Source: Ignavibacteriota bacterium (GTDB taxonomy: Bacteria > Bacteroidota > Ignavibacteria > Palsa-1295). Taken from it: a stretch of DNA of 64,000 bases. Under the pieces are notes generated by a model that was not told the origin of the DNA, did not search any database, and was given only the letters and a program-made list of their open reading frames with translations. A program made the translations under genes and the position numbers. The stretch lies in the NCBI GenBank assembly GCA_003151825.1, contig PLYO01000047.1, positions 1 to 64,000 of the forward strand, written 5' to 3'. This document shows, piece by piece, positions 13,855 through 60,043 of the stretch (positions are counted from its first letter, which is position 1; each line of letters starts with the position of its first letter).

Positions 13855-15561
13855 ATGTCCGAAACTTTCCAGGTAACAGCCCTTAAGTGGCGGCCCATGC
13901 GCTTCGATGACGTGGCCGGTCAGGATCACGTCACCCGCACGTTGAAAAACGCCATTGCATCGGGCCGTTTGGCCCATGCTTTTTTGTTTACCGGCCAGCG
14001 TGGCTGCGGCAAAACGACCGTCGCACGCATTCTTGCGAAAGCCGTCAATTGCCCGAACGCGGCCACGAATGGCTACGAGCCATGCAATCATTGCGAGAAC
14101 TGCCTCGCCATCACCGAAGGCCGCTCGATGGACGTGGCCGAAATAGATGGAGCATCGAACACCGGAGTCGATGATGTCCGAACGTTACGAGAGAATGTGA
14201 AATATCCGCCGCTTACGGGAAAATATAAAGTCGTTATCATTGACGAAGTTCACATGCTTTCGAACAACGCCTTCAATGCGCTCTTGAAGACGCTCGAAGA
14301 ACCGCCGCGCTATCTTATTTTTATCTTTGCCACGACCGAAGCGCAGAAAGTTCTGCCGACAATTCTCTCTCGTACACAGCGTTACGATTTTCGGCGTATT
14401 CAGCTCGAAGAGATCACGCGCCGCTTGCGAACCATCGCCGAAGCCGATGGCATTACCATCGAGGATGACGCGCTGCTTATCATCGCAAAGAAAGCCGATG
14501 GCTCGATGCGCGACGCGCAATCGCTGCTCGATCAGGTCATCGCCTATTGCGGGATGACGGTCGAGACTTCCCGCCTGCGCGAGGCGCTCAATCTCATCGA
14601 TCTCGATTTTTTCTTCGAAGTATCGGAAGCCATCGCCGGACGCGACCCCAAACGCGCGTTCGAACTAAGCGGCGAGATTATTTCGCGCGGTTACGATGTC
14701 GAAGAATTTTTTACGGGACTCCTCGAACATTTTCGAAATATCCTGACCGTCCAGATAACGAATTCCACCAAGTTAGTGGAAGTATCGAAAGCCCATCAGG
14801 AGCGTTATGCAGCTCATGCAAAGGAGTTTGTAGAAGCCGATCTTTTGCGGCTCATTCGTCTCGGCCAAAATGCTTTCGAACGATTGCGCGTAACGCACGA
14901 CCCGCGCATTGTGCTCGAAGTCGCGCTCGTCGAAATGATGCTGCTCGAGCGGGCGATGGAAATTTCGCAGTTGATCGAAGAAGTCCGCGCGCTGCGAGGA
15001 ACGGGTTCCGGGATCCGGGTTCCGGGATCCGAGGCGGCAATGCCAAAGATTCCATTACCGGAAAAAAAAAGTAATGGCGTAGCCGAATCCCGTTCTATTA
15101 CTCTCCCCACCTCGATTTCAAAACCCCGATCCTCGGAACCCGGAACCCGGAACCCAGAACCTGAGCCCAAAGAGACACTCGATGCGGAGACTATTGCCGC
15201 GCGCTGGGCGGAGTTCGGCGATTTCCTGAAAACAAAATCCCGTCCGCTCCACTCCATTCTTCCGGAACTGGAATTTTGCGGCGTTCGCCGCTCGACGATC
15301 TTTTTTGCAGTTCCCGGCCCAAGCGAAAGAGGGATGCTGATGAACATGAAGGACGAAATGCAGCTCGCGCTCCGGGAATTTTTTGGAGTTCCCCTGCAAT
15401 TCGAAGCCGGACAAAAAAGCGAAATGCGGACAAAAGCCGGTTCGCCTGTTGTGACCAATCCGGAGTTAATCGCGCAGACTATCTCAATTTCAAAACCTGC
15501 AGTCGAGGAACGATCGGAATTGGAACTCGCACTAATCGCATTAGGAGCCCAAGAAGTGTAG
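13855..15561 (+). CDS. dnaX: DNA polymerase III subunits tau/gamma
   Basis: The 568-residue protein is the clamp-loader ATPase. Walker A (TGQRGCGKTT) lies at residues 46-55, four zinc-ligand cysteines at 66, 77, 80 and 83, Walker B/DEVH at 130-133, and the sensor segment LSRTQRYDF follows. Domains I-III end near residue 370. The linker (about 375-440) holds two inverted heptad-repeat segments and an A9 tract at codons 403-405. Domain V follows to the end. Slippage at A9 would give a ~405-residue gamma-like protein. The stop codon lies inside an inverted repeat. Confidence 0.95.
   Translation: MSETFQVTALKWRPMRFDDVAGQDHVTRTLKNAIASGRLAHAFLFTGQRGCGKTTVARILAKAVNCPNAATNGYEPCNHCENCLAITEGRSMDVAEIDGASNTGVDDVRTLRENVKYPPLTGKYKVVIIDEVHMLSNNAFNALLKTLEEPPRYLIFIFATTEAQKVLPTILSRTQRYDFRRIQLEEITRRLRTIAEADGITIEDDALLIIAKKADGSMRDAQSLLDQVIAYCGMTVETSRLREALNLIDLDFFFEVSEAIAGRDPKRAFELSGEIISRGYDVEEFFTGLLEHFRNILTVQITNSTKLVEVSKAHQERYAAHAKEFVEADLLRLIRLGQNAFERLRVTHDPRIVLEVALVEMMLLERAMEISQLIEEVRALRGTGSGIRVPGSEAAMPKIPLPEKKSNGVAESRSITLPTSISKPRSSEPGTRNPEPEPKETLDAETIAARWAEFGDFLKTKSRPLHSILPELEFCGVRRSTIFFAVPGPSERGMLMNMKDEMQLALREFFGVPLQFEAGQKSEMRTKAGSPVVTNPELIAQTISISKPAVEERSELELALIALGAQEV
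15005..15161. repeat. Inverted pair of 7-bp-period arrays inside dnaX
   Basis: The left array (15005-15032) reads GTTCCGG/GATCCGG in four heptads. The right array (15134-15161) reads CGGAACC three times and CAGAACC once, the reverse complement of the left unit. Both are translated in frame within the dnaX linker. Confidence 0.8.
15052..15077 (+). promoter_or_regulatory. Candidate dnaX slippage/frameshift site (A9 in hairpin loop)
   Basis: CCATTAC (15052-15058) pairs with GTAATGG (15071-15077), leaving CGG plus nine adenines (15062-15070) in the loop. The zero frame reads GAA AAA AAA AGT. The -1 frame meets TAA at 15072 and the +1 frame meets TAG at 15080, so a slip in either direction ends translation at once. 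The location matches known tau/gamma slippage sites in Escherichia and Thermus dnaX. Confidence 0.7.
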
Positions 15562-15641
15562 GGACGTGCTGCGCACGTCCTGCGGGTCTGGAAAAAACAG
15601 TTTCGATTCCGTGGAGTCGGACGTGCGCAGCACGTCCCTAC
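15558..15641. repeat. Inverted repeat between dnaX and rpsT
   Basis: Arms at 15558-15580 and 15619-15641 are exact inverted copies (GTAGGGACGTGC...), each with an internal GACGTGC/GCACGTC palindrome. The element contains the dnaX stop codon and could serve as a bidirectional terminator between the convergent genes. Confidence 0.75.
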
Positions 15642-15647
15642 ATTAAA

Positions 15648-15899
15648 TCAGGCGATAGATTTGCCGACCGCCCGTGCCAGCTTCGATTTCTTATTCGCGG
15701 CGAAATTCTTGTGGACGAGTCCCTTCCGGGCGAGCTTATCCAAGCGGCTTTGGATCGTTTTGAGATCGGTGGATGGATTTGCCGCCGAGGCGTCAAATTC
15801 CTTCAATAATTTGCGTAATCCGACCTTTTGGCCTTTATTGGCCACGCGGCGTTTCTCCGAAAGTCGATCGCGGCGAACCGCTCCTTTGTGTTGAGGCAT
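15648..15899 (-). CDS. rpsT: 30S ribosomal protein bS20
   Basis: The 83-residue basic protein shows the bS20 pattern: an N-terminal basic helix (MPQHKGAVRRDRLSEKRRVAN) and a C-terminal KGLVHKNFAANKKSKLARAV stretch that contacts 16S rRNA. It is a monocistronic gene convergent with dnaX. The upstream region contains an inverted CGGGAATGAC-type repeat. Confidence 0.92.
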   Translation of the reverse strand: MPQHKGAVRRDRLSEKRRVANKGQKVGLRKLLKEFDASAANPSTDLKTIQSRLDKLARKGLVHKNFAANKKSKLARAVGKSIA

Positions 15900-15976: not shown

Positions 15977-16056
15977 GTCATTCCCGCGAAAGCGGGAATC
16001 CAGATCCCGGCTTTGCGGTGTCCCGAGAACTGGATTCCCGCTTTCGCGGGAATGAC
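15977..16056. repeat. Inverted GTCATTCCCGCGAAAGCGGG repeat
   Basis: The arm at 15977-16003 and its exact inverted copy at 16030-16056 each contain the palindrome TTCCCGCGAAAGCGGGAA. The core is the widespread dRS3-like ATTCCC-n8-GGGAAT element. A second, partly decayed copy of the whole element lies at 26702-26782. Confidence 0.85.
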
Positions 16057-16093
16057 AATTCGATTTATCATACAAATTATATTGAGTCCCCAC

Positions 16094-57438: not shown

Positions 57439-58860
57439 TTGATGGAACCTTTATCCGTGAATCCGCCGGAACAACTCTCGCCCCGAGAGCTGGAGTATAT
57501 TGAGCGATATACGAAACAGATGCGAAAGATTGGCCGAACCCGCAAGCGGGTTCGCGAATCCCTTTGGCATCGCATCCTCAAATGGGTCGAAGGAATCAAT
57601 CGAAGGGCTATTTACAGCATCTTTCGCCACTTCTTCCAGAATGACGAACTTCCTAAGCGGCTCGATCCATCCAAAGTTCATAGTATCTTCGTTATTCCGT
57701 TCGGCGGCGCGATTGGCGACATGCTCGTGGCTATTCCACTTTTCCATGCCATCAAACGGCATCTCCCGCATTGCAAGATCGGCACGTTCATTACGGAGCG
57801 CAATAGATCGCTGCTTCGCTCGGATTCCTCAGTAGATGAAGCCTATCCTATTCGAGATAAGCGTTCGTTCCAAAATATTCGAGAAATTCTTCGTGCCAGG
57901 CGCTCGGGTTACGATGTGGTCATTAACATGCACATTCACGGAATGACGGAGTATGGGCTGATCGCGAATGCCATATCCCCTCGTGGCGCGAAAGTAAGCT
58001 GGACACATGCCAGAGGACGACTCTATCGGACGCTCTATAACAATCTTATTCCTTATGAGCGCGATTCGATGCAGGAGGCGCAGATGGGCCTCGTGATGCT
58101 CGAATCCGTGATTGCCTTAGAAAAGCCCATCGAGCAATGGGAATCGCGTCCGACGCTTATCGTTTCGGATGCCACGCGGGTAACGGTAAAGGAACAAATT
58201 ACTTCGACACTCGAACAACTTGGGGCTTCATGGTATATTCATTTTAATCTCCAGGCGAGGCATCCAAAGCGGGAGTGGGGGTTGGAAAACACGGTCACCT
58301 TCGCGCGCAGGTTTTTGGACTGCTACCCCGATGGCGCAATCTTTTTCTCCGCTTCGCCTATTATGCGCCATGCAATCGAGCAGCGCATTAAAGAGTTGCC
58401 GCTCCCACGCACCGTCTTCTTTCCGACGTCCTTCGACCTCCATGAGGTGGCCACGCTGGTGGCAAATTCAAAGTTAGTGATTACTCCGGACACAGCAGTC
58501 ACTCATTTTGCAAGCGCAAGCAATCGCCCCGTGCTCGTGTTGCACCCGGGACTCATTCGGCTCCCTCTGGAATGGGCCGCTCTGCAAGTTCCATCTTATA
58601 TTCTTGCCCCCTCCGCCCGAGATATGGGCACGATTGAAATTCCTGTCGATGAGGTATGGGAGGCTGCGTGCAGCCTCCTCGATGGAGTAAGGACTGCCAC
58701 TGCCACCAGCGTCGGACTGCACCCCGATAACGACCCATTATTTCAGGAAGCTAACGCTGCCGAGCCTCTTGCCAGCCTGATCAATCGTTCCTCCGTGCCA
58801 CGGATATTCACCGATGATATCCCTGGGCCAATCCCAATGGCGTCGTCCCCCGCACCCTAA
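57439..58860 (+). CDS. Glycosyltransferase family 9
   Basis: The 473-residue protein has a ~75-residue basic N-terminal extension, then the GT9 core: SIFVIPFGGAIGDMLVAIPLFHAIKRHLP, YDVVINMHIHG, and the C-terminal VITPDTAVTHFASASNRPVLVLHPG. The last residues (Pro-rich) are unrelated to the family. It probably transfers heptose or another sugar to a surface glycan. It is 4 bp from the following GT9, a likely paralogue. Confidence 0.87.
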   Translation: MMEPLSVNPPEQLSPRELEYIERYTKQMRKIGRTRKRVRESLWHRILKWVEGINRRAIYSIFRHFFQNDELPKRLDPSKVHSIFVIPFGGAIGDMLVAIPLFHAIKRHLPHCKIGTFITERNRSLLRSDSSVDEAYPIRDKRSFQNIREILRARRSGYDVVINMHIHGMTEYGLIANAISPRGAKVSWTHARGRLYRTLYNNLIPYERDSMQEAQMGLVMLESVIALEKPIEQWESRPTLIVSDATRVTVKEQITSTLEQLGASWYIHFNLQARHPKREWGLENTVTFARRFLDCYPDGAIFFSASPIMRHAIEQRIKELPLPRTVFFPTSFDLHEVATLVANSKLVITPDTAVTHFASASNRPVLVLHPGLIRLPLEWAALQVPSYILAPSARDMGTIEIPVDEVWEAACSLLDGVRTATATSVGLHPDNDPLFQEANAAEPLASLINRSSVPRIFTDDIPGPIPMASSPAP

Positions 58861-58864
58861 TTCC

Positions 58865-60043
58865 ATGCCCATCCTCGATCGTTTATCTGAAGCTCGTTTT
58901 CGGCGCCGCTCGCTTTCGCGCTTCGATTCGCGGTTCCGCGAATGGGTTCGGCGCATCGAAAAAAAAATCAAGTTTTTACTCTCCAGCCCACTGGGTTTTT
59001 TGCTCCATCCTAAGCGCGCGAAGACACCACTGCCGCTTTCCGCAGTCTCCAGCATTCTTATTCTCCGATATGACGCGCTGGGCGATGCCGTGCTGACGAC
59101 GCCCCTTTGGCGTTCGCTCAAACGCCTCGCGCCGCATATCCGCATCGGCGTTGCGGCAAGCGCAAGAAACCGCGCTCTCCTCGACCCCGACCCGGACATC
59201 GACGACGTCTTTATTTTTTCGAAAACTCCATCCTTTCCACTGCTCCGTGAACTGTTTCGCGCGCGTAGAACAAAATGGGACATCGTGCTCAATCTTTATT
59301 TTCACGATAAAACACGCGGAGCTATTTATTCGAAAATTGCCGCGCCGAACGGTATCAGCGTAACGATCGTGCGAGAAAAGAAAGAAAAATATCTCAGACT
59401 CTATTCCGCAGTAGGTGAGCGGCCCCCGATTCCTACGCCGATGGTACAGCAGAATTTATTGGTACTGAAAGAAGCGCTCGATCTTCCGATCGATGTTACG
59501 GCGGAGCGGCCATCCCTTCCCGAATTTCCGGAAATTGACAGAACATTCAAGAAAGAACTCGACGCAGTTTTGCGAAAATCTGGTAAAACGGATTACCTCA
59601 TCATCAATACGGACGCTTCACAGTTGTACAAGGAGTGGGGCGTGGAACATTCTGTCGCACTCGCGCGGCGCATTGTGAGTAACTGGCCGAAATGCCATGT
59701 TTTTCTTTCGAGCGCGCCGGCTCGAGCGGAAAATGTTCGCAAGCTTCTTGGCTCTGGAGAGAGCGGAATATCCTACCTTGAAACACCCTCCATTCTTCAT
59801 CTTGCCGTTGCCGTCCGCCATGCGGTTGCGGTGGTGAGTCCCGATACGTCCGTCATCCATTTCGCGACGGCGCAAGATGTCCCGGTTGTCGGCTTATATT
59901 TAGAACCCAATGAATTCCTGCCCTATGCATCAGCCTCCCGTGTCTTATTCGCACCGGATGGCAAAATGGCAACAGGAATTAGTATTGACGATGTTTTTCA
60001 GACGCTCGAAGATCTGCTTGCGGAGACAAGCTCCGCGTCGTAG
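58865..60043 (+). CDS. Glycosyltransferase family 9
   Basis: The ~392-residue protein has SILILRYDALGDAVLTTPLWRSLKRLAPHIRIG, WDIVLNLYFHD and VVSPDTSVIHFATAQDVPVVGLYL, the GT9 donor-site signature. A basic N-terminal extension (~60 residues) resembles the one in the preceding GT9, suggesting paralogy. The ATG at 58865 is preferred over 58814, which overlaps the upstream gene. Confidence 0.88.
   Translation: MPILDRLSEARFRRRSLSRFDSRFREWVRRIEKKIKFLLSSPLGFLLHPKRAKTPLPLSAVSSILILRYDALGDAVLTTPLWRSLKRLAPHIRIGVAASARNRALLDPDPDIDDVFIFSKTPSFPLLRELFRARRTKWDIVLNLYFHDKTRGAIYSKIAAPNGISVTIVREKKEKYLRLYSAVGERPPIPTPMVQQNLLVLKEALDLPIDVTAERPSLPEFPEIDRTFKKELDAVLRKSGKTDYLIINTDASQLYKEWGVEHSVALARRIVSNWPKCHVFLSSAPARAENVRKLLGSGESGISYLETPSILHLAVAVRHAVAVVSPDTSVIHFATAQDVPVVGLYLEPNEFLPYASASRVLFAPDGKMATGISIDDVFQTLEDLLAETSSAS

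Follow-up and report, generated by a model that had tools for sequence, protein, structure and literature searches.

The dnaX gene in a 64,000-nt stretch of DNA from an Ignavibacteriota bacterium (class Ignavibacteria; hereafter, the window) carries a run of nine adenines (A9) within an intact reading frame. This raises the question of whether one gene encodes both a long, tau-like and a short, gamma-like clamp-loader subunit, and whether RNA polymerase, the ribosome or a hairpin enclosing the run would be responsible.

Results

The A9 tract lies in the linker of an intact dnaX gene

The full-length tau-like ORF occupies positions 13855–15561 on the forward strand and encodes 568 aa in 568 codons (TIGR02397, E 9.5e-134; Pfam DNA_pol3_delta2, ATPase lid and gamma3). 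Domain III covers residues 239–373 by its Pfam match, and the A9 tract (15062–15070, +) begins in codon 403, in the linker after this domain. It spans codons 403–405 and the first base of codon 406, and is read in the tau frame as GAA AAA AAA AGT. Both alternative frames close shortly after it, the −1 frame at TAA 15072–15074 (+) and the +1 frame at TAG 15080–15082 (+), 1 and 9 nt from the tract. In simulated transcripts the unshifted message gave tau of 568 aa and 63.3 kDa. An A10 transcript (or a −1 ribosomal shift) gave a gamma-like product of 406 aa and 45.6 kDa ending in PLPEKKK, and an A8 transcript gave 408 aa and 45.8 kDa ending in EKKVMA. The original observation of the tract, both stops and a 7-bp pairing around the tract was exact; it had predicted a gamma-like protein of about 405 residues.

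The genome search found one other exact A9 in the window (58959–58967), in frame and close to the start of an ORF resembling a glycosyltransferase (58814–60043, +). Two inverted repeats follow dnaX on its 3′ side (15558–15645 and 15978–16059, starting GTAGGGACGTGCTGCGCACGTCC and GTCATTCCCGCGAAAGCGGGAATCC) and flank a putative ribosomal protein S20 gene (15648–15899, −). They are perhaps dispersed palindromic repeats or terminators.

The tract is conserved within the genus

The source genome (3.59 Mb) has 41 exact A9 runs on both strands, and about 7e-4 would be expected in a 120-nt stretch of sense strand. Genomes of the genus have from 5 to 41 such runs (both strands), which corresponds to about 1e-4 to 7e-4 per 120-nt sense stretch. 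Nevertheless, six of the seven genus genomes, including that of the window, have the tract in the dnaX linker. It is exactly A9 in all six although its flanks have diverged. The genomes of G002 and G004 have just five A9 runs each, this one among them. The core GAAAAAAAAAGTRA is retained in five of the six, the tau-frame peptide at the tract is EKKS or EKKT, and the −1 stop lies 1–4 nt past the tract in every one. With such a low genomic expectation and this recurrence in relatives, the dnaX A9 is far beyond chance.

Comparison with relatives had been proposed as the check on both the tract and the hairpin; the A9 is conserved in the genus but the hairpin occurs in no other genus genome. The tract is also absent from the dnaX site in one of the six other genus members (G003) and in four of the five genomes sampled from the rest of the family. 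This loss in close relatives counts against the original prediction, but the class-wide pattern still favours a function.

A-tracts recur at one place in dnaX across the class

We surveyed dnaX from 148 genomes of the class (24 families, 83 genera), counting runs of at least nine A as tracts. Such a tract was found just after domain III (about codons 377–403) in 74 of the 148 genomes, 16 of the 24 families and 43 of the 83 genera, and its length was A9 in 51 genomes, A10 in 22 and A11 in one. It lies near codon 380 in most families and at 394–403 in the genus of the window. None of the 148 genes has a run of nine or more A in codons 1–359. Of the 78 such runs in dnaX reading frames, 75 fall at codons 360–420. 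Synonymous-codon shuffles kept a tract in 20 of 148 genomes on average (maximum 29), a generous null because lysines are retained. All three codon registers are used (40, 17 and 17 of the 74 tracts), and therefore the A-run itself is kept rather than one peptide.

For 81% of tracts, stops in both alternative frames follow within 30 nt, compared with 18% of random control positions in the linkers of the same genes, and the +1 frame closes early (median 14 nt after the tract versus 40 nt at control positions). The long frame stays open in 71 of the 74. These signals come from non-independent events, so no combined probability is given.

On the DnaX tree the tract changed state at least 28 times, compared with an average of 50 and a minimum of 42 for shuffled labels. 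The tract is therefore inherited but turns over, and it is dispensable in many lineages. Low GC content was considered as a cause and rejected: the medians differ little (46.5% in tract-bearing and 49.6% in tract-less genomes), the GC-rich families f8 and f12 have the tract and the AT-rich family f16 does not. A GC-rich relative (G025, locus L017) has a G8 run at codon 390, the usual place of the tract, with the other frames closed at 3 and 11 nt; its close relative G043 does not have this run. Beyond the phylum, similarly placed A-tracts were found in named records of Raymondbacteria (A9, L060) and Fibrobacteres (A10, L052), and Desulfobulbaceae dnaX records have A9–A11 at a similar place (L079, L097, L098, L108 and L110).

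The hairpin around the tract is specific to one genome

In the window the A9 is enclosed by a perfect 7-bp hairpin, CCATTAC/GTAATGG (15052–15077, +; arms 15052–15058 and 15071–15077), with a 12-nt loop composed of CGG and the A9. Its energy in isolation is −5.2 kcal/mol, and it is absent from the minimum-free-energy folds of 15040–15090 (z −1.0) and of 14995–15170. The longest enclosing stem in the other tract-bearing genomes of the genus is 2–3 bp. Among the 74 tract genomes, the enclosing stem reaches 7 bp or more in two (0.25 expected), but these come from unrelated lineages and thus do not reflect conservation. A search for the exact string CCATTAC-A9-GTAATGG returned nothing, as expected with CGG between arm and tract. 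The position of the hairpin would also prevent it from acting. Its 3′ arm would not yet be transcribed while RNA polymerase is on the tract, and its 5′ arm would already be inside the ribosome channel during decoding of the tract, so that it could not serve as a downstream barrier. The hairpin had been put forward as the unusual feature of this site; being specific to one genome, not the preferred fold and misplaced to stimulate slippage, it is judged an incidental coincidence.

A larger inverted repeat also encloses the A9 (arms 15004–15034 and 15131–15161, +), built of GGGTTCC/GGGATCC heptamers. Its 31-nt arms are 90% complementary, lie in the coding linker and are translated in frame, and the fold energy of the region is −78.6 kcal/mol (z −6.9). 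It was considered as a stimulator of slippage and rejected, since it is specific to this genome, not common to the genus, and meets the same positional objection as the small hairpin; it too is judged incidental. A few other copies of the heptamer arrays occur in the genome, including G000:C22:52355-52385, G000:C17:23103-23139 and G000:C16:58492-58505, and those on C22 and C17 also seem to lie within long open frames.

An apparent ribosomal cassette replaces the tract in one genus

In most lineages lacking the tract (G003, f2, f13 and f14 among them) the scans gave no evident substitute signal. Genus g31 of family f16 has no A-tract, but at dnaX codons 387–414 it has an apparent −1 ribosomal frameshift cassette in all six readable genomes (G047, G056, G077, G138, G094 and G100; loci L024, L029, L211, L214, L219 and L230, respectively). 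The anatomy is that of such a cassette: GGAGG or a near match 11–12 nt upstream, the slippery sequence A_AAT_TTT, an immediate −1 TAA, a 5–6-nt spacer and a C5/G5 hairpin (CCCCC-loop-GGGGG). Its presence at the same place in a genus without the tract suggests selection for gamma.

In three other class genomes the arrangement looks reversed. In G076 (L233), G098 (L252) and G146 (L250) the zero frame stops 9 nt past an A10, and the −1 frame is open for 644, 305 and 125 nt, respectively. These are candidates for two-ORF dnaX genes in which tau would need slippage, or for homopolymer or single-base assembly errors.

Discussion

Our data indicate that one dnaX gene probably yields a long and a short protein by means of a conserved A-tract. 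We consider it likely that the A9 is a programmed transcriptional slippage site of the Thermus thermophilus type, producing gamma from the tau gene. RNA polymerase would slip on the nine A's, so that dnaX mRNAs would differ in their number of A's. Transcripts with nine A's (or nine plus 3n) would be translated into tau of 568 aa, and those with other counts would end at TAA 15072 or TAG 15080 to give a gamma-like subunit of about 406–409 aa. The gamma-like subunit would retain domains I–III and lack the C-terminal part, through which tau of E. coli binds the polymerase and the helicase. The surrounding hairpin would have no role. The original proposal of gamma by slippage on the A9 is thus supported, since the tract is conserved at a characteristic place and free in register, and the alternative frames after it are closed; the part assigned to the hairpin is not supported. 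From these patterns we infer that slippage takes place, that it is chiefly RNA polymerase that slips rather than the ribosome, and that the cell makes and uses gamma.

Alternatively, −1 ribosomal frameshifting of the E. coli kind, which leaves the mRNA unchanged, could be the main source of the short product. The tract contains a legal in-frame X_XXY_YYZ heptamer (GA A_AAA_AAA GT, followed by AAG TAA, a close −1 stop), the −1 stop is the nearest one in the genus, and g31 has a ribosomal cassette at the same place in dnaX. However, in the genus no Shine-Dalgarno-like match upstream of the tract exceeded 3 nt, and no conserved stem was found downstream. The 50 nt downstream of the A9 fold at −4.8 kcal/mol, compared with −19.7 kcal/mol in E. 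coli dnaX (L175); absolute energies were used for this comparison and upstream and downstream z-scores were set aside as uninformative, because even E. coli dnaX, the control, scored z −0.15. A −1 ribosomal shift has no need of a +1 frame that closes early, nor of tract lengths kept at 9–11 when seven A's are enough for the ribosome. Early +1 closure, free register and runs of 9–11 favour polymerase slippage, as in Thermus, and frameshifting by the ribosome as the main route seems rather unlikely to us.

We think it very unlikely that the A9 lacks a programmed use, whether as an A-rich stretch due to chance or as a site of replication slippage (phase variation). Whole families and one genus member do without the tract, and lysine-rich linkers favour A-runs, as the shuffles show. 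Against chance or phase variation stand recurrence at one place only, stops enriched in both frames, a length of exactly A9 in all six tract-bearing genus genomes and a long frame that almost always stays open. Least probable of all, to the point of being hardly credible, is the suggestion that slippage is stimulated in a new way, by a hairpin that holds the A9 in its loop. The pairing is perfect over 7 bp and G062, an unrelated genome, also has an enclosing stem of 7 bp, but the short stems elsewhere in the genus, the predicted fold and the position of the arms relative to polymerase and ribosome all speak against it.

Returning to programmed slippage, we lean slightly towards a broader reading, in which gamma from dnaX is under lasting selection while the mechanism behind it turns over. 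A-tract slippage would move within the linker, be lost and regained and sometimes change from tau-by-default to gamma-by-default, and a ribosomal cassette would have replaced the tract in one genus.

According to a 2012 review, most bacteria do not have dnaX frameshift signatures and may not make gamma (PMC3290774). In contrast, half of the sampled class genomes carry a dnaX slippage signature. This signature needs no RNA structure, and with an intact tau ORF it can readily escape notice. The finding is relevant to the debate over what gamma does, and a natural comparison becomes available between related lineages that use slippage, ribosomal shifting or neither of the two. Our search of the open-access literature found no paper joining Kapabacteria and dnaX. 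Within the open literature searched, a Thermus-type site is new for this group. Slippage in dnaX is already known and the kind is ordinary; the extent in the class and the turnover are what stand out, and among searchable papers this extent and the swap to a ribosomal cassette look unreported.

The closest known system is that of Thermus thermophilus, where dnaX has an A9 slippage tract and 50% of the product is short (PMC1088944). As in that account, the window has a sense-strand A9 late in an intact tau ORF, and both other frames stop nearby (PMC1088944). The window shows the sequence features of the Thermus type: at least nine A's after domain III, full tau in the unshifted frame, close stops in both shifted frames and conservation independent of register. 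The phylum and the linker sequence are different, slippage is a prediction here, and the tract of this genome happens to sit inside a hairpin judged incidental. The two-ORF dnaX genes that carry A10 or A9 runs, found by GeneTack in Chloroherpeton (A9), Chlorobium and others (PMC3711429), likewise have the A-run at the gamma/tau boundary, but there tau requires the shift and in the window gamma does; G076, G098 and G146 resemble this two-ORF type. The −1 programmed frameshift of E. coli concerns the same gene and a similar linker position, and gamma also ends a few codons from an A-rich slippery site. E. coli dnaX (L175) combines A_AAA_AAG with an upstream Shine-Dalgarno-like stimulator (GGAG) and a downstream stem-loop, and the window has neither of these two stimulators.
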